In this document: positions 6,507 through 23,444 of the stretch, piece by piece
Position numbering within the stretch: the first letter of the stretch is position 1
How the letters are laid out: each line of letters begins with the position of its first letter
NCBI GenBank assembly: GCA_905182275.1
Contig: CAJJAU010000008.1
Span: forward strand, 1-64,000
Direction of reading: 5' to 3'
DNA from: a gamma proteobacterium HTCC2207
GTDB lineage: Bacteria > Pseudomonadota > Gammaproteobacteria > Pseudomonadales > Porticoccaceae
Length of the DNA: 64,000 nucleotides
Program-made: the position numbers and the translations under genes
Notes under the pieces: generated by a model
The model's database searches: none
The model's input: the letters and a program-made list of their open reading frames with translations, nothing else
What the model was told of the DNA's origin: nothing

Positions 6507-8189
<1,683 letters not shown>

Positions 8190-8930: not shown

Positions 8931-10202
8931 TTATTTGCGATAGAACTCCAGCCCGCTGGCCCAAAGATGTTTAAAACCGGGCCAGGGGTCACTGTATTGG
9001 CGCAGGGCACCAGTGTATTGCTGGCTGTCTTGACGCTTGGGCAGATAATCACAGCGGGCTGCATCGCTTTTAACATGACAGTCTAAAAACGCGAGACTCA
9101 TATGTTCGATAACTCGATTAATGGTTTCTATATTCCAGGCGGGATCGACGTAATGCCCCAGTTCAAAGTCTGTGGAAAATGAGGCCGCTGGTGCTGGATG
9201 GGGGCCAATATTGTGCCGCGCATTTTTAAACAGCAACATGTAGTTATGCTCAGAACCCGTCTGGTCAAAGAGTTTTTTGATGCCAGTTTTATAGCCTGAG
9301 GTGTTGTCTTGATCGCCGGCAAAATAAAAGGTGGGCACGCTAATATTGTTCATGGCCTCAGCACTATGCACATCTTGTTCACCACCCCAAGGGGCAAAGA
9401 GTTGCACGGCTTTCCAGCGTGGGTCAGCTATTTCGCGGCCGCCATAACAGGAATTTAGTACCGGAGGCATGACCAGTGCCAATGGCGCTGGCGTGCCCAA
9501 AGCCTTGAGCTTGTCATAGCTGAAGTCATAGCAACCACCAACGGTATTGATGGCGCCAAAGCCACCCATGGAATGGCCGATAATTGCGGCACGATCTGTA
9601 TCCACGATATTGGCGACAGGCGACTGCTGGAAGGTAAAGTAGTCTAGAAGAAATTGCTGATCACGGGCGCGGTTATACAGAGTACTAGCAAATCCTGCGG
9701 GACGATCTTCATGTTTCTTGATCTGAGAATTGGTTGAATCTGTGTGGTCTATGCCAACAACGATATAACCATGACTGGCTAGATGCTCTCCCAGATAAAA
9801 CATCTGGGTGCGATAGCCGGTAAAACCATGGGACAGCAGAATCAGCGGAAAGCTGCCTTCGCTTAGCGCTGGCGCATCGCGGTAGGCGCCGCCCTGCAGC
9901 TCAAAGGGTTTTTGCAGGCGGGTAACATTTTTATAGGTCGCCATTTTTGCTTGGTCAGCAGTATCTGCTGGATACCAAACCTCTAGCGTCAAGGGTCGTT
10001 CAATATGGGTAATAAAGTTGGCTGTGTTTAAGCGTTTTGGATCATTAGAGGTGATTGTGGTGACACCTACGTTATAGGTGCCGGAAAAAGCCAGCTCTGG
10101 TGTCACTGGAGGCTGATCGGTATATAACTGTTCGGCGCAGATAGCGATATTGCTAATAAGCATTGCACTGATAAATAGGGTTTGGCGCAGTATTTTAATC
10201 AT
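8931..10202 (-). CDS. secreted alpha/beta hydrolase (PAF-acetylhydrolase / dienelactone hydrolase-like)
   Basis: A 423-residue protein with an N-terminal signal peptide (charged start, hydrophobic LFISAMLISNIAICA, cleavage before EQ). The fold shows SHGFTG (oxyanion region), the nucleophile elbow GHSMGGFG with its serine, an FAGDQD segment with the likely catalytic aspartate, and ARHNIG with the likely histidine. Members hydrolyse short acyl esters of lipids or carbohydrates; the substrate here is unknown. The start is ATG after an AAGG ribosome site, with a GTG one codon earlier. It follows the GntR gene on the same strand by about 200 bases and may belong to the sugar-utilisation island, for instance removing ester groups, but that is inference. 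Confidence 0.8.
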   Translation of the reverse strand: MIKILRQTLFISAMLISNIAICAEQLYTDQPPVTPELAFSGTYNVGVTTITSNDPKRLNTANFITHIERPLTLEVWYPADTADQAKMATYKNVTRLQKPFELQGGAYRDAPALSEGSFPLILLSHGFTGYRTQMFYLGEHLASHGYIVVGIDHTDSTNSQIKKHEDRPAGFASTLYNRARDQQFLLDYFTFQQSPVANIVDTDRAAIIGHSMGGFGAINTVGGCYDFSYDKLKALGTPAPLALVMPPVLNSCYGGREIADPRWKAVQLFAPWGGEQDVHSAEAMNNISVPTFYFAGDQDNTSGYKTGIKKLFDQTGSEHNYMLLFKNARHNIGPHPAPAASFSTDFELGHYVDPAWNIETINRVIEHMSLAFLDCHVKSDAARCDYLPKRQDSQQYTGALRQYSDPWPGFKHLWASGLEFYRK

Positions 10203-10407
10203 CACTTTTAAGACCTTGTTTTTATCATTATAAAGTTTTTAATTTTACGTTCTTTATCAATTCTGTTGTTGCTACAGTTTTGCGTTATAGATGCCGATAA
10301 ATTAAAAAAGACGTCTGTTAAAGTTATGTCAAAAAAGTGCAACCGACGGTTGGAATAGCCGGCATCTAAATCATGACGAACTGTAATTTTGAACAGCGAG
10401 ATCTTAT

Positions 10408-11127
10408 CTACGTTAGATGAACTGAATAAACTAAATTCTCGGAACTGCAATAAGCTGTGCTGAATTCAACAATCCGACCATCAATGTTTACGCTGCTGCG
10501 TTCGATCATTAATACGGGTGAGCCCTCGGGTAGATCTAGATGTTGGGCATAGTCTTTGGATATTTCTACGGCCCGCACCTCATCGCTGACTGACATAATG
10601 GTGATGCCATATTTTTCTTGATAGAGAATATAGAGCGCATTGGGTAGGTCGGTGTTTTTATCAATATCTGGAAAGACCGAGAGTGGCTGGATAACCTTTT
10701 CTATAATTGCGGGCTTGTTGTGAATAGATCTCACTCGGGTTAATTCAACTACGAGTTCATTGGCCTTCAAGTTCAATTTTTCTGTTTCGTATCCAGATGC
10801 CTTGCGGCGAGTTGAACCCAGAACTAGGGTGTCTGGAATCAGCATTTCTCCATTGGGCTCGCGAAGCCTAAAAAATCTAAACAGGTCACTCTCCTGAGTA
10901 TGTTCAGCGACAAATGTCCCTTTACCCTGCTGTCGCTGAAGCATTTTTTCAGCAACCATCTGGTTGAGCGCTTTGCGAACAGTTCCCTGACTAACCCCAA
11001 TCTCTTTTGCTAACAGCATCTCGCTTGGCAGAATTTGAGATGGTTTCCAGTAGCCTTCGATGAGCCGCGCAATGAGCAGTTCATAGACCTGTTTGTAAAG
11101 CGGTTGAAGCTCTGGACTTGGGGACAT
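10408..11127 (-). CDS. GntR/HutC-family transcriptional regulator with UTRA domain
   Basis: A 239-residue regulator. Residues 8-75 are a winged helix (LPSEMLLAKEIGVSQGTVRKALNQMV, then QRQQGKGTFV), the standard GntR DNA-binding unit. Residues about 95-235 are a UTRA ligand-binding domain, recognisable by the LTRVRS, PAIIEK and late MIERSS segments. HutC-type repressors usually bind sugars, amino sugars or other pathway intermediates and control neighbouring genes. It has its own AGAGGA ribosome site. It sits beside the TonB receptor and is the only regulator in the island, so it likely controls the receptor and transporter/enzyme operons; see the shared motifs near 13926 and 21447. Confidence 0.92.
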   Translation of the reverse strand: MSPSPELQPLYKQVYELLIARLIEGYWKPSQILPSEMLLAKEIGVSQGTVRKALNQMVAEKMLQRQQGKGTFVAEHTQESDLFRFFRLREPNGEMLIPDTLVLGSTRRKASGYETEKLNLKANELVVELTRVRSIHNKPAIIEKVIQPLSVFPDIDKNTDLPNALYILYQEKYGITIMSVSDEVRAVEISKDYAQHLDLPEGSPVLMIERSSVNIDGRIVEFSTAYCSSENLVYSVHLT

Positions 11128-11304
11128 ATATTCCTCTGCATAAATCTCTAAACGCCAATCATACCACCACGGTGGCCATTTTACCTTTCCCGTTAAACAG
11201 CTGGAGCATTTGCTTCGCGATCAAACAACTAGTTGACGTTATTGAAACTTATTATGGTTTGGTTAAGGCAGTAATTCTAGCTGTCTGTATTTTATTTGGG
11301 CATT

Positions 11305-11331
11305 AAAAAAGGGGCGATATTCGCCCCTTTT
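11305..11331 (-). terminator. rho-independent terminator after the TonB-dependent receptor
   Basis: GGGGCGA (11311-11317), loop TAT, TCGCCCC (11321-11327): a 7-bp GC-rich stem. On the minus strand it is followed by six T (11310-11305) and lies just beyond the receptor stop. It has four T on the other side, so it could act in both directions. Confidence 0.92.
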
Positions 11332-11348
11332 CTATACTTCTTAAGCCT

Positions 11349-13751
11349 TTAGAATGATGCTTTAAAAGCAACACCAAAGTAGCGGCTGGCATCGCGAGGT
11401 ACCTGGTAACGAAAGCCATCACCACTGTAGGTGGTTGTATAGCTCTCATCGCCAAGGTTCTTGCCGATCAGAGAGATGCGGTAGCGATCTTCATCAAACG
11501 AGAAACCGATACTGGCATTGACCATATCGTACTCTGGCAGCAGCCCACGTGGATCTTGAGAACCGTCATTCCCCGGTAATCCTGAAACCTGTTCATCAGT
11601 GTGCACAAATGAACCATTGATGATGATATCCATGTTGTCACGTGAAATCACATATTTGGCCATCAGTGAGTACTTGAGTTCCGGTGCAAAAGGTACGGGT
11701 AAACCAGATCGAGCTGAACAGTTTGTCGCCGTAGGATCAGGACAGCTGAACTTGTCGATTTCCGCGTCGATTGCAGCAATGCCGCCAAATAGTGTCAGGT
11801 TTTCTATTGGAGCCCAGGTAAAATCAAGCTCTACCCCTTCAGTTGTCACATCCCCTGCGTTGGTCAAACGCGTAATACAGGCGCCATCTGAACAGTCGGC
11901 GTTGTTAGCTTGGAAGTTCTCAATATCCGTTTGGAAAATAGCCGCGTTTAGCATCAAGGTATCAGACGTATATTTATAACCCAGTTCTAGAGAAGTTGAT
12001 GTTTCCTCTGAGAGAGGAGCAGCGTCGTCTCCATTGGCCTTGAAGTTATAGTAGATATTAAAACCTGGGCCTTTGTAACCCTGAGACGCAGTAGCATAAA
12101 ACATCGAGTTATCAGTAAAGTCTGTTTGAATACCTAATTTACCAGACACATTCGACTCAGTAGTGCTACCACTGGCATCAGTATTCTCTGTTGCTGGACG
12201 AACACCAACACCACGACGACCATACTGGTCATTACTGACGCGTTTGTGGCTGTAGCTTACTTCGTCATCGGTGTAGCGCAGTCCAAATAACAGTCTTGTG
12301 CTATCGGTAAGATTGTATTTACCTTCACCGAACGCCGCCCAGTTATTAAACTCAGTGCTCATATAGGCGGTGGCAGAGATAATGTCATTGGCATTACAGG
12401 TAACACCTTCAGACGCGGCATAGGCATCCAAATCAGCCAGAGCAGCAGTTAAGTCGCTGCCTGTTAGCGTCTCATTAGCATACCAAGTCATGGACTGGTC
12501 AAGCTGACCAGCATTGTTTTGGCAGCTGGCATCGCGAGTAAAGTTGCGCTCAGAGTCGATATTCATATAGAAAGCGCCTACCTGATACTCTAGCGCTTCG
12601 CCCATTGGTGAGGCGATCCTCATTTCTTGCGAGAGTTGACGCCACTCTTGAGGGCCTAGATCATGGAGCTGAAAGGGCACAGCAAATACTGGTTGATTAC
12701 TATCGCCAGCAATCGAGGTGAAATCGCCTTCGCGAATTTCAGTATTGTCCCACGAGCGGTAAGCGGTAATAGAGGTCAGTTCATGTTCGCCCAAGCTGGT
12801 ATTAAACTGAACGGACAGTGCCGTGTGTTTGTCCAGAGTAACCGTTGTAAGATCATGGTCGATTTTACGCTGATCCAAATCAAGATCGGCGACGCCATTG
12901 ACTACACCCTGACTAGTTGGGGATGAGGTTGACGCGGGATTTCTGCCGCTGGGCAGCAGCTCCAAATCGGTACAACATTCGTCAGTTGCATTATATTTTT
13001 CGGCAATAACCAACATTGAGGTATCGTCAGAGATATCAAACTCAAGCATGCCGCGCATTCCAGAACGATCGTAGCCATTGGTCTGCTGATTATTGAAGAC
13101 ATTGCTTACATAGCCGTCAAACTGTTTGTCCAAAATAGTCAGGCTACCGCGGGCGCGATCGCTTAATGGCCCAGAAACAGAAGCTTTAAGGCTATATTCA
13201 TTGTCTTGGAATAATTGTGCTTCTACCGAACCCTCGAACTCAGTGCCAGGGCGTTTGGTGGTCATATTAACCACACCAGCAGAGGCATTTTTACCAAATA
13301 AAGTTCCCTGCGGGCCTCTTAGCACTTCTATGCGCTCAAGATCGTAGAGATCGCCAAAAGCCTGTCCAGAACGGCCTAGAACTACGCCATCAACTACAGT
13401 AGACACACTGGGTTCTGCGGCAATACTGAAAGAGATAGTGCCGATACCACGAACCGTTAGAGCAGAGTTACGCGTAGTGTTACCTTTGCGAAAACTCACT
13501 GATGGGACCATGGACTGTAGGTCCTCAATATTGTTGGCAAATGCAGCATCAATTTGCTCTGAAGTCAGAGCTGTCACAGCAACTGGAACATCGCTTAGCT
13601 TTTCTTCACGTTTTTGAGCTGTTACAACAACTTCTTCAAGTTGCCATCCGGCACTGTCTTGTGCGGTAGCTGAAGTTACGCCAGCTAGACCGGCAATAAC
13701 TGCGGCCGCGCAGGCAACTGCGTTATGGATTGAATTGCTTTTGAGCATCAT
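11349..13751 (-). CDS. TonB-dependent outer-membrane receptor
   Basis: An 800-residue energy-coupled outer-membrane transporter. It has a signal peptide (hydrophobic AVACAAAVIAGLAGVTSATA, cleavage before QD), a TonB-box-like EEVVVTAQKREE close to the mature N-terminus, a plug domain (about residues 50-160, with RGIGT and EVLRGPQGTLFGKNASAGVVNM), then a long 22-strand-type barrel ending in a terminal aromatic strand FGVAFKASF. This sequence type is common in marine bacteria and sphingomonads, where it imports plant or algal glycosides and other substrates too large for porins. Start ATG after GGAG. It has a large upstream region and its own terminator, so it is probably a single transcription unit beside the GntR gene. 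Confidence 0.95.
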   Translation of the reverse strand: MMLKSNSIHNAVACAAAVIAGLAGVTSATAQDSAGWQLEEVVVTAQKREEKLSDVPVAVTALTSEQIDAAFANNIEDLQSMVPSVSFRKGNTTRNSALTVRGIGTISFSIAAEPSVSTVVDGVVLGRSGQAFGDLYDLERIEVLRGPQGTLFGKNASAGVVNMTTKRPGTEFEGSVEAQLFQDNEYSLKASVSGPLSDRARGSLTILDKQFDGYVSNVFNNQQTNGYDRSGMRGMLEFDISDDTSMLVIAEKYNATDECCTDLELLPSGRNPASTSSPTSQGVVNGVADLDLDQRKIDHDLTTVTLDKHTALSVQFNTSLGEHELTSITAYRSWDNTEIREGDFTSIAGDSNQPVFAVPFQLHDLGPQEWRQLSQEMRIASPMGEALEYQVGAFYMNIDSERNFTRDASCQNNAGQLDQSMTWYANETLTGSDLTAALADLDAYAASEGVTCNANDIISATAYMSTEFNNWAAFGEGKYNLTDSTRLLFGLRYTDDEVSYSHKRVSNDQYGRRGVGVRPATENTDASGSTTESNVSGKLGIQTDFTDNSMFYATASQGYKGPGFNIYYNFKANGDDAAPLSEETSTSLELGYKYTSDTLMLNAAIFQTDIENFQANNADCSDGACITRLTNAGDVTTEGVELDFTWAPIENLTLFGGIAAIDAEIDKFSCPDPTATNCSARSGLPVPFAPELKYSLMAKYVISRDNMDIIINGSFVHTDEQVSGLPGNDGSQDPRGLLPEYDMVNASIGFSFDEDRYRISLIGKNLGDESYTTTYSGDGFRYQVPRDASRYFGVAFKASF

Positions 13752-13925
13752 AAATTCTCCAGTTTTTTATACTTATATTTAAACCATTCGTCGATACAAT
13801 TATCGTCGGCACCCTATTAAAATCCCTATGAGTTGGTTAAATATAGATTTTTAGCCAAACACTCATATTAGGAATATATTTACAAAGTTGAAAGTGACAT
13901 AAAATGTGGTAAGTGTCAATACACA

Positions 13926-13943
13926 TGTCTTATATATTATAGA
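13926..13943. promoter_or_regulatory. candidate operator in the TonB-receptor promoter region
   Basis: TGTCTTATATATTATAGA, partly palindromic. Eleven leading bases (TGTCTTATATA) are identical to a site near 21447 in the promoter between the SulP and reductase genes. On the minus strand it contains a TATAAT-like box (13941-13936), so a bound protein could block the receptor promoter. The -35 match is poor. The rest of the 309-base gap (13752-14060) is AT-rich upstream of the receptor and shows no gene. Confidence 0.45.
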
Positions 13944-14060
13944 ATATATAACTTACCCGCGATAGTTGCTGGCTTTTGAGGATTTTGCCGAGGGGTCTGG
14001 TAGTGTTGCTTAGAGCCTACTTAGGGCGTCTAGGTTATTGCGCTGCGTCAAGGCATTGAC

Positions 14061-15779
14061 TTAGTAGTTGCCCAAAGACTGGGCATATTTGTTATACCAA
14101 TACTTAACACTGAGCCAACACAGCAGTGCATTTACCACCAACACGGCAGCTATAGCAGGCCAAAATACCGAGCTCAATCCATTGACTAGCCCTATGGGTG
14201 AAAATAGCAGGTAAATGATGACCGTGCAGCTGACCATAGTAATGGCGACTGGGAAGCCATAGCGCCAAGGTGTCATATCCACCTTGCTTTGATTGACGAA
14301 CTTCCAGGGTTTGTCCATGGGTATCAGGTAACCAATTCCCAGCATGATCCCTAACTCAATAAAAAACAGAATCGCGTAGATATGAATGAAATTAATATCA
14401 ACATCAATAACAAACTTTAGAATGGCATAGGCAATCACATGGAAAGTAATCGCGACTTTGGCAGCAACGCCGGGCACACGCTTGGTAAACAGCCCAACTA
14501 ATACCACCGTGATTACAGGGATGTTATAGAACCCGGTAAAGACACGAATAACCTGAAATAAACCCTCGGGGGCATATTGCAAAAGAGGTGAAACAACAAA
14601 AGAGAACAGCGCGATAACAACACTTGCAATTTTGGCTACCTTAATCAGCTGCTGATCGCTCATAGTCGTTTTTTTATAAGGCTGATAAATATCCAGCACA
14701 AACAATGTGGCGGCACTGTTAAGCAACGAGTTAAAGGATGAAAATACTGCGCCGAGCAGCACGGCTAAAAAGAAACCGGACATATACACGGGAAGGACGT
14801 TTTTCACCAGATGCGGGTAGGCTAAATCGATAGATTGGAGTTCACCACCATAGAGATGAAAGGCGATAATACCTGGCACCATCATAAAAAACGGTACCAG
14901 CAGTTTGAAGTAGCCGGAGTAGAGTACGCCTTTTTGGCCTTCAGCCAGACTGACAGCACCCAGCGTGCGCTGAATAACATACTGATTAGTGCCCCAATAG
15001 AAAAGATTGGCAAAAATCATTCCTGTGAATAAGGTGCTAAAGGGGGTTGGGTCCGTAGGTCCACCAATGGCATTGAGTTTTTCGGTGTGGGTCGTTAAAA
15101 CCTCATTTACACCTGCACTCAGGCTGCCATCACCGAGGGCCATAAAGCCGAACACCGGCACGGTGACACCAATGATTAAAAGGCCAACTCCATTGAGTGT
15201 ATCAGACACTGCAACCGCTTTAAGCCCGCCAAAGACTGCATAGATAGCACCAATAATACCGACGCAGATAATAGTCATAGTAAGCCCAGAGCTATAACTG
15301 ATTTTGAGCAGGTTGGGTATATCAAAGAGTTGTAGTACGGCAATGGAGCCGGAGTATAAAACTGAGGGAATAGTAATAAGCCCGTAGCCGACCATAAACA
15401 ACACCACGGTCATGCGCCTAACATCGTCGCCGAAACGATTACTGAGGAATTGCGGTAGCGTAGTAAAGGCGCCGGATAAATATCGCGGTAAGAAAACTAA
15501 TGCCATGACAATGGTTGCAATAGTGGCAGTGACCTCCCAAGCCATGCTGCTCATATTGTATCCGTAGGCAGAGCCGTTCAGTCCAATAAGGTGTTCGGCC
15601 GACAGGTTGGTCAGTACCATTGAACCGGCAATAAACACGCCGGTCAAACCTCGACCGGCAAGAAAATAGCCATCCTTGGTATCGGCAATACCTTTGGTTT
15701 TTTGATAGGAAACGAAGGCCACGATGCCCATAAAAAACACACAGGAGACCAGTGTGGAAATAATGTAGTTCAACTCCAA
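14061..15779 (-). CDS. sodium:solute symporter (SSS family, SglT/YidK-like)
   Basis: A 572-residue inner-membrane protein with about 14 hydrophobic segments. Early features are those of the SSS family's sugar branch: KTKGIADTKDGYFLAGRGL, then NLSAEHLIGLNGSAYG near the sodium site, WGTNQYVIQRTLGA in the middle, and SSFNSLLNSAATLFVLDIY. It should import a sugar, polyol or glycoside with sodium. It is the last gene of an apparent four-gene operon (SulP, FAD dehydrogenase, GH31, this) and lies 20 bases after the GH31 gene. The start is TTG after a GAGAGGAA ribosome site. The substrate cannot be read from the sequence; the neighbour GH31 suggests an alpha-glycoside or its sugar. Confidence 0.9.
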   Translation of the reverse strand: MELNYIISTLVSCVFFMGIVAFVSYQKTKGIADTKDGYFLAGRGLTGVFIAGSMVLTNLSAEHLIGLNGSAYGYNMSSMAWEVTATIATIVMALVFLPRYLSGAFTTLPQFLSNRFGDDVRRMTVVLFMVGYGLITIPSVLYSGSIAVLQLFDIPNLLKISYSSGLTMTIICVGIIGAIYAVFGGLKAVAVSDTLNGVGLLIIGVTVPVFGFMALGDGSLSAGVNEVLTTHTEKLNAIGGPTDPTPFSTLFTGMIFANLFYWGTNQYVIQRTLGAVSLAEGQKGVLYSGYFKLLVPFFMMVPGIIAFHLYGGELQSIDLAYPHLVKNVLPVYMSGFFLAVLLGAVFSSFNSLLNSAATLFVLDIYQPYKKTTMSDQQLIKVAKIASVVIALFSFVVSPLLQYAPEGLFQVIRVFTGFYNIPVITVVLVGLFTKRVPGVAAKVAITFHVIAYAILKFVIDVDINFIHIYAILFFIELGIMLGIGYLIPMDKPWKFVNQSKVDMTPWRYGFPVAITMVSCTVIIYLLFSPIGLVNGLSSVFWPAIAAVLVVNALLCWLSVKYWYNKYAQSLGNY

Positions 15780-15799
15780 AATCTATTCCTCTCGCTTAC

Positions 15800-17881
15800 T
15801 TATTGGGGCCAATAAAAGGCAACGGGTAAGTCTTTTCCATAATTGTCGACAAACGTCATATCCGGACCCATTGGAATCGACACTCCCTCGGGAACGAATG
15901 CCGCGATCTCATCCAGTGCTAACGTCAGTTTATGGCTGCGGCCTCCGGCAAAAACTTCCCCGCTTGGGAATCTTCTCCATTGCATATTTAGACTGGCAGG
16001 TAAGTATATTTCAATATCCCCTCCGGGTTTAAGGCAGGGCGCAACCAGTATACTGTCACCGAGCATAAATTGTTCCTCGAACCCCCAGGCTGACTTTTCG
16101 TCTGGGCAAGCCAGTACCATTGCTCGCTGAGCAGGAAGGCCTGATTGACTTGAGGCTTGCATGACCTGATTAAGGTAAGGCAATAGCTGGTAACGCAGTT
16201 TTAAAGCTTGGGTGGCGGCTCTGTCAGCCTCGGCACCATAGGACCAGGGCTCTCTTGCACCTATGCCATGTAATCTAATATGGGCAGAGAATATTGCTGC
16301 TTGAGTCCAGCGCACATAGAGCTCATCATCTCGTTGATCACCATAAAAGCCACCAATATCTGTGGCATAAAAGGGTGCACCGGATAGCCCCCAAGAGATA
16401 CCGCCACGCATACTGGCGGCGAGCCCGCCCCAGTCAGCTTGTGGGTCACCACCCCATTGGGCTGGATATCTCTGAGAGCCAATCCATGAGGCTCGGCTAA
16501 ATAGAAACGGCTCAGTTTTACTGTAAAGCTCAGCCGCTTCATAGACGCAGCGGTTGTACAAAAGGCTGTACACATTGTGCAAGATGTCGCCGCTATCACC
16601 GTTGTATGCCAGCATATCTGGCTCAATTTGCTCACCAAAATCAGCTTTGATCATATCCACGCCTAGATCAAAAAGTGGCTTATGGCTATCGCGCCAAAAT
16701 TGGTAGGCCTCAGGGTGGGTAAAGTCAACAATGCCGGAATCAGGCAGTGGGGTTAGTACCTCACCAAAGCAACTAGTGTCCCATTGATAGCGATAGGTCT
16801 CTCCGGTCTCGCGGTGTTTAAGCAACCAGTCCTTGGCTGACATCTCGTCAAAAAGACTGCTATCTACAGAAACTAGGGGGTATTCCCAGATACACACCTT
16901 AAAGTTAAGCGCTTTTAATGCGTTCATCACTATCGCGGGGTCAGGGTAGCGAGTCGGGTCCCATTCGAAGGCGAAGCGGGTTTGCGTATCCTGCCAAGCT
17001 CGCCCATCCAATGTAATAACATCACAAGGCATCTGTTGCTCGCGCACTTTTCTGGCGGTTGCCAATAACTCTTCAGCATCCTTATAGTAGGCCTTAGATA
17101 AAATAACCCCGAGGGCCCAATGGGGCGGCATAGGTGCCCGCCCAGTTAATTCGGTATAGCTGCCGATCATCTGTGCAGGGGTATCAGCCGCGAGTAAAAA
17201 TATATCCGCATAGCTATCTTCAACTAGTAGGCCATAGGCTCGCTGGGACCAAGGCGGGTGTCCCACCGCATGGGTCACAGGTGCAGGGGTATGAACAAAC
17301 ACACCCCATCCATTGGGACTCCAGGCAAAGGGTGTATTCTTATAAGAGATCTCAGCATTGACGCCCAGTGCGTCGTGGTTATAGGAGCGCAATAGCTGGC
17401 CGCGCTTATCCAGGCGACCCCATTTTTCACCCAACCCATAGACGGGTTCACTGGCATCCAGATCAAGTGCGATAAACCAGCCCTGAGCTACTTTTGCGAT
17501 AGGTGGCAGGCGAAACTGACGCACAAAGTGCCCATCTTTAGGCGATCGCTGAATCAGGCAATCGCCGTTGAATAATTCGAATGAGAAGGGGTTATGGTGC
17601 ATTTCCAGCCTATAGCCGGCACCAGTTATTACTGTCGTATCTGCGGCAGATTCTACATTCAGAGCCATAGCATCTGGCTCTTCTACTAACATGCCATAGT
17701 CGCCAAACTGGCGCACCCCAAGGCGCAAGCGTGCACCGAACGAATAAAGAGAAATCTGCAGAGGTCCGGCATCTGTCTGTACTAAGAGAGATTTTCCACC
17801 TTCAGTTAGATCACCAACAGCGGTCACCGACAGTGCCGGAATATTGTCCCAGGCCGGAGCCCGCCCTTCAAAACTAATCAT
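15800..17881 (-). CDS. GH31 alpha-glycosidase (YicI-like)
   Basis: A 693-residue family GH31 enzyme with an N-terminal beta-sandwich (about 1-235), a catalytic barrel and a C-terminal beta domain. The catalytic nucleophile is D414 in IKADFGEQ (YicI alpha-xylosidase has KTDFGE), and the acid/base is D479 in QWGGD. Other family marks are DIGGF and LLPYLNQV. There is no signal peptide, so it should act in the cytoplasm on an imported glycoside. The loop that sets -1 specificity (LDGRAWQDTQTRFAFEWDP) differs from both YicI and E. coli sulfoquinovosidase YihQ; by hand alignment the YihQ sulfonate-binding Arg and Trp are not conserved. So it could be an alpha-glucosidase, -galactosidase, -xylosidase or a divergent sulfoquinovosidase. 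Operon position: 25 bases after the FAD dehydrogenase, 20 before the symporter. Confidence 0.9.
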   Translation of the reverse strand: MISFEGRAPAWDNIPALSVTAVGDLTEGGKSLLVQTDAGPLQISLYSFGARLRLGVRQFGDYGMLVEEPDAMALNVESAADTTVITGAGYRLEMHHNPFSFELFNGDCLIQRSPKDGHFVRQFRLPPIAKVAQGWFIALDLDASEPVYGLGEKWGRLDKRGQLLRSYNHDALGVNAEISYKNTPFAWSPNGWGVFVHTPAPVTHAVGHPPWSQRAYGLLVEDSYADIFLLAADTPAQMIGSYTELTGRAPMPPHWALGVILSKAYYKDAEELLATARKVREQQMPCDVITLDGRAWQDTQTRFAFEWDPTRYPDPAIVMNALKALNFKVCIWEYPLVSVDSSLFDEMSAKDWLLKHRETGETYRYQWDTSCFGEVLTPLPDSGIVDFTHPEAYQFWRDSHKPLFDLGVDMIKADFGEQIEPDMLAYNGDSGDILHNVYSLLYNRCVYEAAELYSKTEPFLFSRASWIGSQRYPAQWGGDPQADWGGLAASMRGGISWGLSGAPFYATDIGGFYGDQRDDELYVRWTQAAIFSAHIRLHGIGAREPWSYGAEADRAATQALKLRYQLLPYLNQVMQASSQSGLPAQRAMVLACPDEKSAWGFEEQFMLGDSILVAPCLKPGGDIEIYLPASLNMQWRRFPSGEVFAGGRSHKLTLALDEIAAFVPEGVSIPMGPDMTFVDNYGKDLPVAFYWPQ

Positions 17882-17906
17882 TTAACAACCTTTTTTATTA
17901 TTAACC

Positions 17907-19526
17907 TTATACGGTTTTTGTTTTTATACCTGAGAGGATATATTCGCTTAACTTTTCATCGGCCTCCTTCCCAAATAGAATGCGACAGGCTTCTTTGAGC
18001 CCCGGCGCCTGAATGATGTCCTCTCGACTAATAACTTGCTCAATCTTAGAGCGTCGGCGCAGAAAATCATCAAGTCTAGTTACCATTTCTCCCTGAGCAG
18101 CCAGTTTTATCTCGCCTCGAATGTACTCAGCATTCTCAATCAGGATCTCGGCGTTATCCGGATTGGATTCAATCAACTGCAAAATATCAAATGCACGTTG
18201 ACCATAGCGGCGCCATAGCCGCTGTGACAGGGGTTCCGAGGAGGGTGAGTCAGTAATACTATCCACGCCCATAGCGCTGGCCTGATTAAAATAGGCTTCT
18301 CTGGTGGCCTTATCAGGTTCGCCATACCACAGCTTTTTCAGGTGTGGGACTGTTATGCCCAGACCAGAAACAATATCGGCAATTTCATCGCCTACATTAA
18401 TACAGTCTGTCAGTTTGCCACCAAATATACTGATATGTTGCTCTTTGTTATTGACGTCAATAGCATGCTGGCGAGACAGCTTAAGCCAATCAGCCACATT
18501 GTTGTCGCCTTTGACGGCCAATGGACGCACACCGCAGCGCTCGGCAACAATATCATTTCGGGTAAAGGGGCGTTCAAGCTCAAGTAAGCGGTTGACATTA
18601 TCGAGCACAAACTCGCGATCTTCGTCGGTAATGCTTACCTGAGGGTCCTCGACCTGCGTATCTGTTGTGCCAATGCAGGTTTTTGGCCCCATTGGAATAA
18701 CAAAAAACAATCTGCCATCAGAGGCAAAAAACGCCAGTACTTTCGGGGTGGTGGCAATTCGGTCTACAACAAGATGAATACCTTTGGAAAATAAATGTCT
18801 GTACGCTGTGGTTTGGCCAGTGGCCAAATTATGCTTATCAACATAGGGACCACAGGCATTGATTAATGCCTTTGAGCGAATTTCAAATTGCTCGCCAGTG
18901 ATATGGTCTTTAACTGTGGTCACCCACAGGCCGTTTATTCGCTCGGAGCCAATCGATTCTAGGTAGTTTGATACAACACTGCCATTGTCCATGCTGGAGC
19001 GGATAAAGTTAAAAACAAATCTGGAGTCATTGTCATGCAGATAGCCATCGGAATACTCAAAGCCGCCGGCAATATTTTCTGTTCTGATGGCCGGTTCCAT
19101 TATCTTCAGGTGCTTTGGTGACAAATAGCGAGGCGGTTTGGTAAAAAAACGTCCAATGCCCCAATAGAGGATAGTGCCAAGAAAAACAAAAAATGGCGGT
19201 AACCTAAATCCTTTTTGAATGGTCGTCAAAAACCGTATCTCTTTTACTACAGAGGGGTAGCTTCGCATCAGCTGATTTCTACTTTTACACAGTTTATTGA
19301 CCAGTAAAAATTCATAATTCTCTAAATATTTTATGCCACCCCAGACTAGGTTAGAAGAGCTAGAACTGGTTGAGCCGGCAAAATCACCACGGTCAATCAG
19401 CGCGACCTGAACCCCTTTGGTCGCCAGCGAGGCGGCTGCGACAGCACCATTGATACCACCGCCTAAAATAAGCGTGTCGAAGGTGGTGGTACGCAATTTT
19501 TGCACATTAGTCTGGCGCAATATCAT
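17907..19526 (-). CDS. GlpD-like FAD-dependent glycerol-3-phosphate dehydrogenase family protein
   Basis: A 539-residue member of the GlpD/GlpA oxidase family. The N-terminal FAD-binding GGGINGAVAAASLA, the STSSSSSNLVWGGIKYLE segment, the GTTDTQ motif and RCGVRPL match glycerol-3-phosphate dehydrogenases, and the last about 120 residues form the helical C-terminal domain of that family. It would pass electrons to the quinone pool at the inner membrane. No glpK or glpF is nearby, so either G3P comes from elsewhere or the enzyme oxidises another polyol phosphate. Its start overlaps the stop of the SulP gene (ATGA), indicating translational coupling and a shared role. The annotation as GlpD family is firm; the substrate is not. 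Confidence 0.85.
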   Translation of the reverse strand: MILRQTNVQKLRTTTFDTLILGGGINGAVAAASLATKGVQVALIDRGDFAGSTSSSSSNLVWGGIKYLENYEFLLVNKLCKSRNQLMRSYPSVVKEIRFLTTIQKGFRLPPFFVFLGTILYWGIGRFFTKPPRYLSPKHLKIMEPAIRTENIAGGFEYSDGYLHDNDSRFVFNFIRSSMDNGSVVSNYLESIGSERINGLWVTTVKDHITGEQFEIRSKALINACGPYVDKHNLATGQTTAYRHLFSKGIHLVVDRIATTPKVLAFFASDGRLFFVIPMGPKTCIGTTDTQVEDPQVSITDEDREFVLDNVNRLLELERPFTRNDIVAERCGVRPLAVKGDNNVADWLKLSRQHAIDVNNKEQHISIFGGKLTDCINVGDEIADIVSGLGITVPHLKKLWYGEPDKATREAYFNQASAMGVDSITDSPSSEPLSQRLWRRYGQRAFDILQLIESNPDNAEILIENAEYIRGEIKLAAQGEMVTRLDDFLRRRSKIEQVISREDIIQAPGLKEACRILFGKEADEKLSEYILSGIKTKTV

Positions 19527-21301
19527 AGGAGTTTCACCGTTCCAGTAACATTACCTGTGGGTTTGGGGGGGTTAGTTTGCACTGCCTGAGTTACATGCAA
19601 GTTGATGCCCTTATCAATGTAGGTAATTGCATCATTAATAGTGGAAAACATGGTTTGTTTAGTCATGTAATCGCCCAGTGTTGAGGTTTTGATTGTATCT
19701 CTTACCGGCCCTATGGCATTGGTGATATAAAACTGAATGTCCTGTTTTTGTAAGTTTTCGATAACCTGCTGCAACATAACCACCGCAGTGCTATCGACTG
19801 TATTGATCGACTGCGCATCCAGCACGACAAATTTAAGGGCCTGCATATCACGCTGTTTCAGCCACAGGTACAGCACGGAAACAAAGTAGTCTTTGTTGGC
19901 AAAATAGAGGAGTGCATCAAACCTAAAAATCAACACGTCGTCACGAACACGGACATCAGCAAAGCAATTTATATTGCGATACAACTTGCCATTTTGGATC
20001 AAACCCAATTCAGTCATGTGGGGGGATGTGGTGTTATAGATCATCATAAGAATTGACAGGCTTACACCTATAAGCAGCCCCTCTTGAATACCAAGTATCA
20101 AGGTCGCCGAAAAAGTGATTAAGAGAATGTAGAATTCTCGTTTATTTTGGGCGTAGAGCGCCCTCATTTCGGCGTATTTAAACAGGCCTGACACAGAGAC
20201 AATAATAATCGCTGACAGCAGTACTTTGGGTAGAGGGTAAGAGACAAATAATGGTGCTACAACCAACATAGCAACACCGACAAACAGTGATGAAAACAGC
20301 GCCGAAACCTGGGTTTTTGCGCCGGCTTCTCTGAACGCTGCACTTCTGGAAAAGCTGGCCGACACGGGAAAGGCTCTGCACAGAGCGCCTACTAGATTGG
20401 CAGCGCCGACCGCTATTAACTCCGAGTTGGGTTGAGCATTCTTTCTGTCGGCTGGGTTTTCTAAAGACTTGCAGATTGACATGCTGCCCACATAGCCCAT
20501 CAATGCCACGGTGATAGCAACAGGCACCAAGGCTTCAAAATCAGACAGCGAAATATTGGGTAAGCTAAAAGAGGGTAATCCCTGGGGAATAGATGACACA
20601 ACATCGACCCCCATACTTTGAATATCCCAGACGCCAGAGGCGATCATTCCGAAGACTAGCAGGAACAGGGGCAAGGGCAGGGATGGAAAATGCCGTTTGG
20701 GCACTGTCATAATCAGCATGCCCAGACCGCCAATTCCCAGAGTCAGCCATGACCAATTAGGCGCTTGTAATATTAGCTGGTAAAGCAATGCAAAGATATT
20801 AGCGCCGCTGCCGACATCTACACCCAGCATAGTTTCAAGCTGAGTGCCGATAATGATCAGTGCTGCTGCCGAGGTATAACCCAAAATAACCGGATAGGAT
20901 AAAAAGTTGGCGATAAAACCAAACTTAAATAATCCTAGCCCCAATTGCAGCAGCCCCACCATCAATGTGAGTAGTATTGCCAATTCTAAATAACGTTCTG
21001 ATCCGGGTTCAGCCAGCACACTCAAACCGGTGATAATCAGAATAGAGTCAAGTGCTACAGGGCCCATTGATATTTTGTTCGAAGTGCCTAAAAGCGCATA
21101 GACAATCGGTGGAAAAATACAGGCATAGAGTCCATACTCCGGCGGTAATCCGGCTACAAGCGCGTAGCCCATACCCTGAGGGATCAGCACAAACGCAATG
21201 ACTAGCCCTGAGACAAGGTCGCTCTTAAAGGTGCCGCGACGATAGCCCTGCAGCCATACCGGGCCAGGGAATAGTTTACTCAGCATGATGTTTGCTAACA
21301 C
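19523..21301 (-). CDS. SulP-family anion transporter with STAS domain
   Basis: A 592-residue inner-membrane transporter. The signature PPEYGLYACIFPPIVYALLGTS lies in the first quarter, followed by about 12-14 hydrophobic segments and a cytoplasmic STAS domain from about residue 440 (KFVVLDAQSINTVDST with the conserved D-S). SulP proteins move sulfate, bicarbonate, dicarboxylates or other anions, often with sodium or by exchange. As first gene of the operon with a dehydrogenase, a glycosidase and a symporter, it may export or exchange an anion released in the pathway, such as sulfate or sulfite; that is inference. The start taken is GTG; an ATG five codons downstream is possible, and no strong ribosome site decides. 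Confidence 0.92.
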   Translation of the reverse strand: MLANIMLSKLFPGPVWLQGYRRGTFKSDLVSGLVIAFVLIPQGMGYALVAGLPPEYGLYACIFPPIVYALLGTSNKISMGPVALDSILIITGLSVLAEPGSERYLELAILLTLMVGLLQLGLGLFKFGFIANFLSYPVILGYTSAAALIIIGTQLETMLGVDVGSGANIFALLYQLILQAPNWSWLTLGIGGLGMLIMTVPKRHFPSLPLPLFLLVFGMIASGVWDIQSMGVDVVSSIPQGLPSFSLPNISLSDFEALVPVAITVALMGYVGSMSICKSLENPADRKNAQPNSELIAVGAANLVGALCRAFPVSASFSRSAAFREAGAKTQVSALFSSLFVGVAMLVVAPLFVSYPLPKVLLSAIIIVSVSGLFKYAEMRALYAQNKREFYILLITFSATLILGIQEGLLIGVSLSILMMIYNTTSPHMTELGLIQNGKLYRNINCFADVRVRDDVLIFRFDALLYFANKDYFVSVLYLWLKQRDMQALKFVVLDAQSINTVDSTAVVMLQQVIENLQKQDIQFYITNAIGPVRDTIKTSTLGDYMTKQTMFSTINDAITYIDKGINLHVTQAVQTNPPKPTGNVTGTVKLL

Positions 21302-21436
21302 TCATAGATCGGCTGTACCACCGGGATTGGCGCCTAGGATTAATGTTGCTGTGCAGAATGTTAGGACTCTTATCATTTTTAGTCTTCAAACTACTTAAGT
21401 CATTGCTGGATGCAAAAATAACCAACTAAATCATTG

Positions 21437-21464
21437 ATTATACTTGTGTCTTATATAATATACA
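21437..21464. promoter_or_regulatory. divergent promoter and candidate operator between SulP operon and reductase operon
   Basis: TGTCTTATATAATATACA (21447-21464) is a partial palindrome that shares its first 11 bases with the site near 13926. A perfect TATAAT (21454-21459) lies inside it for the plus-strand genes, and a minus-strand TATAAT (21442-21437) lies just beside it for the SulP operon. Both -35 regions are poor, as expected for regulated promoters. The remainder of the 197-base gap shows no gene. Confidence 0.5.
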
Positions 21465-21498
21465 TTTAATATAATTCCGCAACAAACGAGAGTCAAAA

Positions 21499-22458
21499 AT
21501 GTCGAAAAAAGATGAAGAAAATATTGGTCTTGGCCTGTGGAAGATACCCAATGATCAATGCGCTGAAACTGTTTATCGCGCCATCGAGGTGGGGTATCGG
21601 CATTTGGATAGCGCCTGCGACTATGGCAATGAAATCGAGGTAGGGCAGGGAATCTCCAGAGCACTGACGGACGGCCTCTGTGTTCGTGAGGAATTAACCG
21701 TAACCTCCAAGCTGTGGAACACCTATCACTGTCCAGAGCATGTAAAACCTGCGTTGGAAAAAATACTGTCCGACCTTAATCTGGATTATCTGGATTCTTT
21801 TCTTATTCATTTCCCTATAGCTCAGGCGTTTGTGCCCTTCGATGAGCGTTATCCGCCAGAATGGTTATATGACCCTGAAGCTGAAAATCCAGGCATGAAA
21901 TTGTCTCAGGTTCCACTGTCAGATACCTGGGGTGCTATGGAAGAATTGGTGTATCAAGGATTGGTCAAGCGCATAGGTGTATGTAACTACAACTCAGGGC
22001 TGCTCCATGATCTGATGTCCTATGCCATTATAAAACCAGCGGAGCTCCAGATAGAAGCTCATCCTTACCTCAGTCAGGAACCACTCATTCGGTTGGCTAA
22101 AAACTATGGCATGGCAGTCACGGCGTTTTCACCCTTTGGTGCGCTTTCCTATGTTGAATTAGAGATGGCCGGCGCCGATGAATCTGTATTAACCCAGGAA
22201 ATTATCACCCAGAGCGCTGATAAATATAACAAGACACCCGCTCAGATTGTGTTGCGTTGGGGTGTTCAGCGAGGTTGTTCGGTCATCACGAAGACCACTA
22301 AAACAGAGCGCTTGCAGGAAAATCTAGATGTCTTTGATTTCGTCCTGACAGATGGTGAAATGAAGGCAGTCTCTGCACTCAATAAAAATCGCCGATTCAA
22401 TGACCCGGGCAAATTTTGTGAATCTGCCTTTAATACTTTTTACCCGATCTACGATTAG
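21499..22458 (+). CDS. aldo/keto reductase (xylose-reductase-like)
   Basis: A 319-residue NAD(P)H-dependent carbonyl reductase with the complete AKR tetrad: Asp and Tyr in LDSACDYGNE, Lys in TSKLWN, His in LIHFP. The insertion after the His segment (PFDERYPPEW...) and the end NRRFNDPG...FYPIYD resemble the fungal D-xylose reductase branch rather than the YdhF-like branch. It would reduce an aldose or an aldehyde intermediate to an alcohol, or run in reverse. A GAGAG ribosome site precedes ATG. It is the first gene of a two-gene unit with the dioxygenase and is divergent from the SulP operon. Confidence 0.9.
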   Translation: MSKKDEENIGLGLWKIPNDQCAETVYRAIEVGYRHLDSACDYGNEIEVGQGISRALTDGLCVREELTVTSKLWNTYHCPEHVKPALEKILSDLNLDYLDSFLIHFPIAQAFVPFDERYPPEWLYDPEAENPGMKLSQVPLSDTWGAMEELVYQGLVKRIGVCNYNSGLLHDLMSYAIIKPAELQIEAHPYLSQEPLIRLAKNYGMAVTAFSPFGALSYVELEMAGADESVLTQEIITQSADKYNKTPAQIVLRWGVQRGCSVITKTTKTERLQENLDVFDFVLTDGEMKAVSALNKNRRFNDPGKFCESAFNTFYPIYD

Positions 22459-22469
22459 GAGTCCGCTTA

Positions 22470-23444
22470 GTGACCTACCAGAGCAATATGCTTGAAGATC
22501 TTGAATTCAACAATGATCACTTCCCGTCTATTATTTTAAACAATGGCTCGATAAAGACATTGGAGCAGGCTCAAGCCTGGATAAATCAAAATCAGGCGAC
22601 TATAAAAAAAGAACTCGCCTGCACTGGCGCTGTTTTATTTAGAGGGTTTCCCGTGAGCGATGCAGTCAGCTATGACGCTTTCTTTTCGGCATTCGGTTAC
22701 GACAACTTCACCTACAAAGAATCGCTTTCAAATGCGGTGCGGATCAACTATACCGACCTAGTGTTCAGCGCCAATGAAGCACCAAAAAATGTAGAAATCT
22801 ATCTTCACAGTGAAATGGCGCAGACGCCTGTTTTCCCCAACATTATTTCCTTGTTTTGTGAAAAAACGGCAATTACTGGGGGTGCAACCATTTTATGCAG
22901 ATCAGATGTTGTCTACCAAAAGGTCGCAGCCGCTGAACCTCAGCTAACGGAAAAACTGTCTAGTGTAGGTGTTAAATATACCAACAGAATTCCAGCGGCT
23001 GATAACGCTGACTCGGCACAGGGCCGCGGCTGGCAAAGTACATTGAGTGTTGAAACTCGAGACCAAGCGGAGCAGAAATTACGTAATCTGGGATACACAT
23101 GGCAGTGGCATTCAGATGGATCCCTGTCGGCACAAACCAGAGCTCTTTCGGCTATCAAGTCTATCGAAAATGGTAGGCAGGTTTTCTTCAATCAGATTAT
23201 TGCGGCCTATGAAGGGTGGGAGGGTGTTAAGGACGATCCTTCAGTAGGGTTGTGTTTTGGCGACGACTCACCAATTCCTAGCCACTTTTTGGATAGCATC
23301 TGTGACATCGCCTCTGAAACGGCCTACGACCTTGTATGGCAGGATGGTGATGTTGCCGTCGTTGATAATCATCTTTCAATGCATGGCCGTAGACCCTACT
23401 CTGGAGATCGTGTGCGCAGAGTATTGGTAACTCTGGGTCTGTGA
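22470..23444 (+). CDS. Fe(II)/2-oxoglutarate-dependent dioxygenase, TauD/TfdA family (SyrP-like)
   Basis: A 324-residue PF02668-type dioxygenase. Metal ligands are H113 and E115 (LHSEMAQ) and the distal H305 (MHGRRP); R316 or R317 should bind 2-oxoglutarate. The carboxylate ligand is Glu rather than the Asp of TauD, as in the SyrP-like branch. Such enzymes hydroxylate a carbon, sometimes releasing sulfite from sulfonates. It starts with GTG eight bases after AGGAG that overlaps the reductase stop, so the two are translated as a pair. Next to a sugar-importing and glycoside-cleaving operon this enzyme is unusual: it suggests the substrate carries a group that must be removed oxidatively. Substrate unknown. 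Confidence 0.88.
   Translation: MTYQSNMLEDLEFNNDHFPSIILNNGSIKTLEQAQAWINQNQATIKKELACTGAVLFRGFPVSDAVSYDAFFSAFGYDNFTYKESLSNAVRINYTDLVFSANEAPKNVEIYLHSEMAQTPVFPNIISLFCEKTAITGGATILCRSDVVYQKVAAAEPQLTEKLSSVGVKYTNRIPAADNADSAQGRGWQSTLSVETRDQAEQKLRNLGYTWQWHSDGSLSAQTRALSAIKSIENGRQVFFNQIIAAYEGWEGVKDDPSVGLCFGDDSPIPSHFLDSICDIASETAYDLVWQDGDVAVVDNHLSMHGRRPYSGDRVRRVLVTLGL

Follow-up and report, generated by a model that had tools for sequence, protein, structure and literature searches.

A probable sulfoquinovose-glycoside utilization island in gamma proteobacterium HTCC2207 with a candidate second lineage of GH31 sulfoquinovosidases

Among the described routes for the breakdown of sulfoquinovose is the sulfo-SDO (or sulfo-ASDO) pathway, whose SqoD and SquF proteins were reportedly described from Marinobacterium aestuarii by Ye et al. 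in 2023. Here we examine a gene island at positions 10408-23444 that probably encodes a pathway of this type. The island lies in a window of 64,000 nucleotides, by which we mean the whole stretch analyzed (positions 1 to 64,000, forward strand, of contig CAJJAU010000008.1, GenBank assembly GCA_905182275.1), from gamma proteobacterium HTCC2207, which we take to belong to the SAR92 group. The window is part of a 2.0-Mb draft genome (G000) that is 91% complete and in 88 contigs, and the closest named relatives of the island dioxygenase sit in Porticoccaceae bins, which makes membership of this family probable. As described in reviews, the sulfo-SDO pathway converts sulfoquinovose, 2-oxoglutarate, and O2 to sulfite and 6-dehydroglucose, and the latter to glucose (PMC12890257, PMC9594981, PMC13372026). 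SquF is an NAD(P)H oxidoreductase of aldo/keto reductase (AKR) family PF00248 (PMC9594981), and genes for GH188 enzymes are reported inside sulfo-SDO clusters (PMC10755693). The sulfo-SMO pathway (SmoA, SmoB, and SmoC) has the same two-step logic and products (PMC9594981, PMC12890257), but it uses a flavin monooxygenase and a flavin reductase, neither of which is among the island genes.

Like the sulfo-SDO system, the island comes from a marine gammaproteobacterium and places a TauD-family dioxygenase, an AKR, an importer, and an anion transporter beside a glycosidase. It differs in that the glycosidase is neither GH188 nor YihQ-type, a SulP protein stands in place of a TauE-type exporter, and a TonB receptor and a GntR/UTRA regulator are present. 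We estimate a probability of about three in four that the island is a sulfoquinovose-glycoside operon of the sulfo-SDO type, with its GH31 enzyme representing a second sulfoquinovosidase lineage within GH31. A first-pass annotation had proposed the gene families and their arrangement, and all of the genes that it named are present at the place, in the family, and on the strand given, as judged by open reading frames, Pfam, and NCBIfam. It did not recognize the combination and regarded the dioxygenase and the SulP protein as unusual in such a set. However, the sulfo-SDO pathway is already in print (PMC12890257, PMC13372026), and the unrecognized element is the GH31 enzyme rather than the dioxygenase.

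The dioxygenase (22470-23444, + strand; Pfam TauD, 102 bits) belongs to the Fe(II)/2-oxoglutarate-dependent class and probably fills the role of SqoD as a sulfoquinovose dioxygenase. The AKR preceding it (21499-22458, + strand; Pfam Aldo_ket_red, 146 bits) is a probable 6-dehydroglucose reductase in the role of SquF. All three metal ligands of the dioxygenase (H113, E115, and H305) are kept in the window, and among 30 close relatives H113 and E115 are each kept in 29 and H305 in 30, so that a TauD-family enzyme with intact ligands lies adjacent to an AKR, as in sulfo-SDO. The relative in a fragmentary genome (L064, G038:C20) has N and Q at the H113 and E115 positions, unlike the other 29. The closest dioxygenase in the PDB is 9yut (193 bits), an entry that is absent from the 50 fold-search rows listed for the dioxygenase model (mean pLDDT 73) and whose code we found named in no paper. 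Foremost among those 50 rows is At3g21360 (1y0z) with a Z score of 26.9, and the remainder score 15.1 or less.

The function of this pair is best approached through the enzymes that accompany its kin. Among 33 dioxygenase loci, an AKR of at least 50% identity is found in 29, and the glycosidase is a window-type GH31 in 14, GH188 in 12, and a YihQ-type GH31 in one, with none seen in six. This count excludes L083 and L084, which are on the same contigs as G029 and G013, and the loci are partly non-independent (L088 and L089, for example, are near-copies). Among the six loci without a glycosidase, L061 and L064 are short contigs, and L079, L114, and L115 carry distant dioxygenases (29-31%). A recognized sulfoquinovosidase is therefore beside kin pairs in 13 of the 33 loci, and the window has none. 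The annotation's proposals that a group is removed oxidatively, that SulP moves an anion, and that the reductase acts on the resulting aldehyde fit the sulfo-SDO pathway.

A related dioxygenase (43-52% identity) is encoded elsewhere in the same genome, on contig C68, as well as in 21 of 142 relatives, several of them incomplete, that were sampled in addition to G000. In the C68 copy and in 10 of the 21 that were examined, the order is a Gfo/Idh/MocA protein, then an AKR (62-68% identical to that of the window), then the dioxygenase. One of the Gfo/Idh/MocA proteins, when compared with the PDB, gave 8zn9, 8qc2, and 8qc3 as best matches, and we take 8zn9 and 8qc3 to be GH188 structures. The structure 8qc2 is a GH188 sulfoquinovosidase (PMC11465081). 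All 12 GH188 copies, the twelfth being in G398, keep R-x3-L-x-K...H at the spacing of the published sulfonate-binding and catalytic residues R166, L170, K172, and H193 (PMC11465081, PMC10755693). The NAD+-dependent GH188 sulfoquinovosidase (SqgA) thus fills the same slot beside the AKR-dioxygenase pair in related modules, that on C68 included, whereas its fold and mechanism are unrelated to those of GH31 and no GH188 enzyme is found in the island. The C68 locus (L071, 2034-10325) is a second, GH188-type sulfo-SDO module in this genome, and no such module was seen in the nine other genomes with a window-type dioxygenase.

A third arrangement is seen in Vibrio sp. CK2-1, where an AKR (70%) and a dioxygenase (61%) adjoin TRAP transporter genes and a YihQ-type GH31. 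This enzyme scores 856 bits against YihQ (5aed) and keeps R301, W304, and Y508, which we take to be the YihQ sulfonate residues, although no confirming text was found in the papers searched. In the midpoint-rooted AKR tree, the Vibrio sequence is nested within the window-type group (11 rows, 100/94), and the dioxygenase tree has a matching group that includes Vibrio (12 rows, 86/100, with an open fork). Because pairs from the same trees adjoin the GH31 clade, GH188, or a YihQ-type GH31, the simplest reading is that all share one AKR-dioxygenase function, presumably the conversion of sulfoquinovose to glucose, and that the glycosidase has been exchanged.

It is unlikely, in our judgment, that the island instead serves another sulfonated sugar glycoside (e.g., a sulfofucoside or other 6-sulfohexose) by means of a paralogous dioxygenase and reductase, with sulfoquinovose left to the GH188 module on C68. 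Such a division of labor would suit the presence of both modules in one genome, the similarity of only 43-52% between window-type and GH188-type dioxygenases, and the lack of the presumed YihQ sulfonate residues in the island GH31. In addition, the authors of PMC12421959 report that they found no candidate sulfofucosidase. Yet the Vibrio pair, which sits beside a YihQ-type enzyme, groups inside the window-type AKRs and with the window-type dioxygenases, and GH31-clade loci that lack a dioxygenase have genes resembling sulfoquinovose isomerase. Moreover, the two dioxygenase types look like alternatives more than complements, because G000 is the only one of 10 genomes with the window type that also shows the GH188 type. 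The further proposal that the GH31 clade is the first glycosidase dedicated to a sulfonated sugar that is not sulfoquinovose (the missing sulfofucosidase, for instance), with a paralogous C-S cleaving pair beside the GH188 module, seems to us if anything slightly less likely.

The GH31 glycosidase (15800-17881, - strand) is a candidate sulfoquinovosidase of a non-YihQ clade, as judged from Pfam GH31, alignment, tree, and contexts. It shares with YihQ-type enzymes, one of which accompanies the kin pair of Vibrio CK2-1, the GH31 family, the predicted role, and the catalytic Asp pair, in that nucleophile D414 and acid/base D479 align with YihQ D405 and D472. It differs from YihQ in its low identity (28-29%) and in its separate clade, and its best PDB relatives are the alpha-glucosidase 5f7c and the alpha-xylosidase YicI (33%). 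A tree of 36 GH31 rows separates from YihQ a group of 20, made up of 19 window-clade rows and a Deinococcus sequence, with support of 100/100; YicI, itself a long branch, joins this group weakly (88/58). All 15 clade rows compared have F at the places of W304 and Y508, and L108 alone has R at the place of R301.

Two other arginines, R294 in a DGRAW motif and R302 in a TR motif, are conserved without exception in Deinococcus and the 19 clade rows, and none of the 16 other GH31 rows has them. R294 aligns at or beside the place of YicI C307 and F308, which we take to be specificity residues. R302 stands one residue ahead of the F aligned with W304, where the alignment is loose at a YihQ insertion, and because of this position it could serve in place of R301. 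The role suggested for both residues is read from the alignment, because the GH31 fold model had a mean pLDDT of 52 and was unused. We propose that this enzyme represents an undescribed sulfoquinovosidase lineage, the second within GH31 and nearer the YicI type, that may grip the sulfonate through residues unlike those of YihQ.

The same comparisons bear on the possibility that the enzyme is an ordinary alpha-glucosidase or alpha-xylosidase acting on a neutral glycoside, with the dioxygenase and reductase acting on the released aglycone or on another sugar. In its favor are the nearest structures and the best NCBIfam family, alpha-xylosidase PRK10658, although the score of 404 bits does not reach the cut-off of 606. 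We nevertheless find this possibility quite improbable, since kin AKR-dioxygenase pairs accompany GH188 and YihQ-type sulfoquinovosidases elsewhere, a TauE sulfite exporter occurs in three loci, and the clade-specific arginines fall at or beside the presumed specificity positions of YicI.

Further support for a sulfosugar substrate comes from GH31 loci without a dioxygenase. Among 19 loci with a window-type GH31, the dioxygenase lies on the same stretch in 14; of the others, L060, L065, and L066 stop at contig ends, and L068 (G057) and L108 (G148) are without it. The GH31 gene of G057 neighbors genes for a LacD-type aldolase and for an isomerase that scores 290 bits against NCBIfam sulfoquinovose isomerase, for which the cut-off is 700. 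Outside the 19 loci, the Deinococcus peraridilitoris plasmid pDEIPE01 carries a GH31 that is 44.5% identical and follows an ABC importer, an isomerase (139 bits to the same family), a PfkB kinase, and an aldolase. Sulfoquinovose isomerase is the only NCBIfam match at 1e-20 for either isomerase, the aldolases are 28-29% identical to YihT (29% for Deinococcus), and the Deinococcus kinase is 32% identical to YihV, with ribose-1-phosphate kinase as its best NCBIfam match, below the cut-off. These neighbors resemble sulfo-EMP enzymes and lend support to the proposed function, not proof of it, because the family cut-offs are not reached. When the Deinococcus GH31 was used in a phylum scan, five of 398 genomes matched at E 1e-110, and the GRAW motif was found in G000, G487, and G858, not in the other two. 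At the L108 locus (G148:C15, 8452-13329), a window-type GH31 (49%) is accompanied by a TonB receptor (37%) and by transporter genes judged TRAP-like by eye, and neither a dioxygenase nor an isomerase is in view.

The genes of the island also travel together. A close dioxygenase (59-85% identity) is found in nine of the 142 relatives and a close GH31 (62-88%) in 10; both are present in eight, GH31 alone in two (G012 and G057), the dioxygenase alone in one (G021), and neither in 131 (Fisher p 1.2e-10, with relatedness uncorrected). Because of this co-occurrence, the linkage of the island genes is not chance. The complete block, in the order GntR, TonB receptor, SSF, GH31, GlpD-like, and SulP, diverging from AKR and dioxygenase, occurs in G011, G048, and G140, and it is incomplete or divided between contigs in G029, G013, G019, G041, G038, and G012. 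The first-pass annotation had suggested a search for the same neighborhood, and the order does recur, both in G140, which belongs to another family of the order and whose dioxygenase is split in two pieces, and in Pseudoalteromonas. Related loci also occur in named relatives, namely Vibrio sp. CK2-1, two Pseudoalteromonas strains (Z1A8 and EB27, with loci L088 and L089), and one bin each of Pseudomonadales and Cellvibrionaceae. When 369 genomes were sampled across the class, a dioxygenase of at least 53% identity was found in four others (G284, G396, G487, and G491), each of which carries the GH31 as well (57-61%), and G148 has GH31 alone. A plasmid collection gave 107 records of named dioxygenase relatives, none of which reaches 60% identity (the 20 rows listed have 25-30%). 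At G026:C1:485241-485303, in a genome without a GH31 match, a stretch of 21 residues with a stop is 81% identical to the end of the dioxygenase and is a possible relic of a lost copy.

That the genes are neighbors by chance or through loose co-regulation, with no single pathway, accords with the absence of GlpD-like and SulP from part of the copies. However, both the dioxygenase and GH31 are present in eight of the 11 genomes that have either, the order is kept across families, and a shared palindrome is confined to the island in its own genome, and we consider this explanation highly improbable.

This palindrome, with consensus ATGTCTTATATAAGACAT, occurs as two operator-like sites, each matching 14/18, at 13925-13942 (+ strand), upstream of the TonB receptor, and at 21446-21463 (+ strand), between the divergent SulP and AKR operons. 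A pattern fitted to these sites finds only these two in the 2.0-Mb genome, and a reversed control finds none; because the pattern was made from the sites, its value lies in their exclusivity. A 20-base pattern gave four matches at the two places in the window, as many as in none of 100 shuffles. A 14-base pattern was weaker, with five window matches against a mean of 1.3 by chance, a number reached by three of 100 shuffles. Promoter scans were of no use (one site versus 1.4 in shuffles; three versus 1.2, standard deviation 1.3).

Sixteen orthologous window-type loci, chosen for detailed examination because a site had been found there at a threshold of 14/18, hold 31 sites, of which 29 are intergenic and two are inside GH31; L061 and L065 were outside the scan. 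The intergenic sites stand before AKR/SulP, the TonB receptor, GH31, GntR, or GlpD-like, and the gene faced by one of them, at the L085 edge, lies beyond the stretch fetched. A site lies 42-50 bases from the AKR start in nine of these 16 loci. No sites were found in 16 other loci (269,847 bases), namely L071-L082 (GH188-type and other), Vibrio L087, L108 of G148, L113, and L114. The HutC-type GntR+UTRA regulator (10408-11127, - strand; Pfam GntR 73 bits, UTRA 99.6 bits), a probable island repressor, has homologues of 37-87% identity in 13 fetched window-type loci, beside the palindrome in L085 and L110-L112. The palindrome is also found upstream of the receptor in G057, and therefore both GH31 contexts are tied to one regulator type. 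We infer that the island forms one regulon, in which the GntR/UTRA protein would repress three transcription units from the palindrome and might be released by a pathway sugar.

From the families and contexts of the remaining genes we infer the following substrates and directions of transport. The TonB-dependent outer-membrane receptor (11349-13751, - strand; Pfam Plug and TonB_dep_Rec_b-barrel) and the SSF Na+/solute symporter (14061-15779, - strand; NCBIfam PRK10484, 722 bits, cut-off 401), a probable inner-membrane importer, would import a sulfoquinovoside, most likely sulfoquinovosyl-glycerol from sulfolipid. Receptors of 58-95% identity occur in orthologous islands, including those of G140 and Pseudoalteromonas, and that of G057 (50-58%) is in two reading frames. 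A test for a SusC-type receptor gave 56 bits to TIGR04056, under the cut-off of 368. SSF proteins of 65-69% identity stand beside the GH188-AKR-dioxygenase module in seven loci (L073-L078 and L082). The GH31 enzyme, which by eye has no signal sequence, would cut the glycoside in the cytoplasm to sulfoquinovose and an aglycone. The dioxygenase, with O2 and 2-oxoglutarate, would split the C-S bond to give sulfite and 6-dehydroglucose, and the AKR would reduce the latter to glucose, which a glucokinase homologue (G000:C48) could take on.

Sulfite may exit through SulP (19523-21301, - strand; TIGR00815, 420 bits, cut-off 380), a probable sulfite/sulfate transporter whose operon diverges from that of the AKR and dioxygenase. 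A TauE/SafE sulfite exporter replaces SulP in L088, L089, and L109, and the presence of SulP or TauE fits anion export. The dioxygenase has a PF03601-type protein next to it in L088, L089, L109, L110, and L111 (Pfam assignment from L088). The GlpD-like FAD enzyme (17907-19526, - strand; PRK12266, 253 bits, cut-off 360) is encoded by an open reading frame that overlaps that of SulP by four bases. It keeps Y55, H233, R317, R332, and K354 and has K for R54, when compared with residues that we take to form the glycerol-3-phosphate site of GlpD. It is absent or broken in several islands (missing from G013 and G019, and with a large internal gap in G029) and is a dispensable accessory. Perhaps it acts on a glycerol aglycone, and a glycerol kinase homologue is present in the genome. 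The idea that it is the cell's only glycerol-3-phosphate dehydrogenase was rejected, since it is the second GlpD-family copy, the other being on C51.

Several observations weigh against the interpretation of the island as a sulfoquinovose-glycoside operon. The GH31 clade is without a member of known activity, the window enzyme falls outside the YihQ clade, the solved structures nearest to it carry the names alpha-glucosidase and YicI, and the presumed sulfonate residues R301, W304, and Y508 read Q, F, and F. Both isomerase matches are far under the cut-off, and 8tnf and tagatose-bisphosphate aldolases are nearer to the two aldolases than YihT is. The likeness of the island dioxygenase to SqoD of M. 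aestuarii is one of family and context. The genome already holds the GH188 module on C68, and therefore the island could serve a different sugar. Some loci also depart from the pattern: the G019 copy has a dioxygenase with no reductase beside it, G021 has AKR and dioxygenase with no GH31, and the GH31 of G148 (L108) has a TRAP-like transporter with no sulfosugar enzyme in view. L110-L112 are without both SulP and TauE, no site at 14/18 is found in window-type L058, L063, and L064 or in L108, and GlpD-like is without a proven role.

The first-pass annotation placed the start of the island at 8931. Its genes from 10408 on belong, and the functional unit appears to run from 10408 to 23444, ending at the regulator. 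The interval 8931-10205 (- strand) holds an esterase of the PETase/PAF-acetylhydrolase fold, with a signal-like start by eye, that the annotation had left unnamed. We rejected this gene as a member because its match is on another contig in all nine genomes that have it together with a window-type dioxygenase or GH31 (G011, G012, G013, G019, G021, G029, G038, G041, and G048; identity only 42-44% in G038 and G048) and because no palindrome is near. At E 1e-40 the genome has a single other esterase match (69%, on C68), which adjoins the GH188-AKR-dioxygenase module, a GH42 gene, and a second SSF gene, and in G003, G015, G025, G028, and G043 the genes for the esterase and for a GH188-type dioxygenase are no more than about 5 kb apart. 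From this placement, glycolipids may be deacylated and galactolipid head groups used. Also upstream of the island is a Cpn60/TCP-1 family chaperonin that follows FxsA (window 6531-8189, + strand).

Among the substrates suggested in the annotation, nothing was found for floridoside or glucosylglycerol use, and both were rejected; the relatives of the dioxygenase indicate sulfosugars, in agreement with the sulfonated glycosides on the same list. The pathway is known, and the GH31 lineage looks new. Neither this lineage nor the pathway in this family was found described in the open-licence literature searched, which is weak evidence given that scope. The same literature yielded no link of SAR92 with sulfoquinovose, their sole co-mention treating them apart.

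Sulfoquinovose production is put at approximately 10 billion tons a year (PMC10755693, PMC12890257). If the proposed function is correct, the GH31 clade would join YihQ-type GH31 and GH188 as a third lineage of sulfoquinovosidases. It would then escape searches based on those two in SAR92-type bacteria, in Pseudoalteromonas, and perhaps on a Deinococcus plasmid. Some of these genomes may already be included in surveys based on the dioxygenase, such as that of PMC13372026. It would also follow that recognition of the same anionic sugar arose twice within one glycosidase family.

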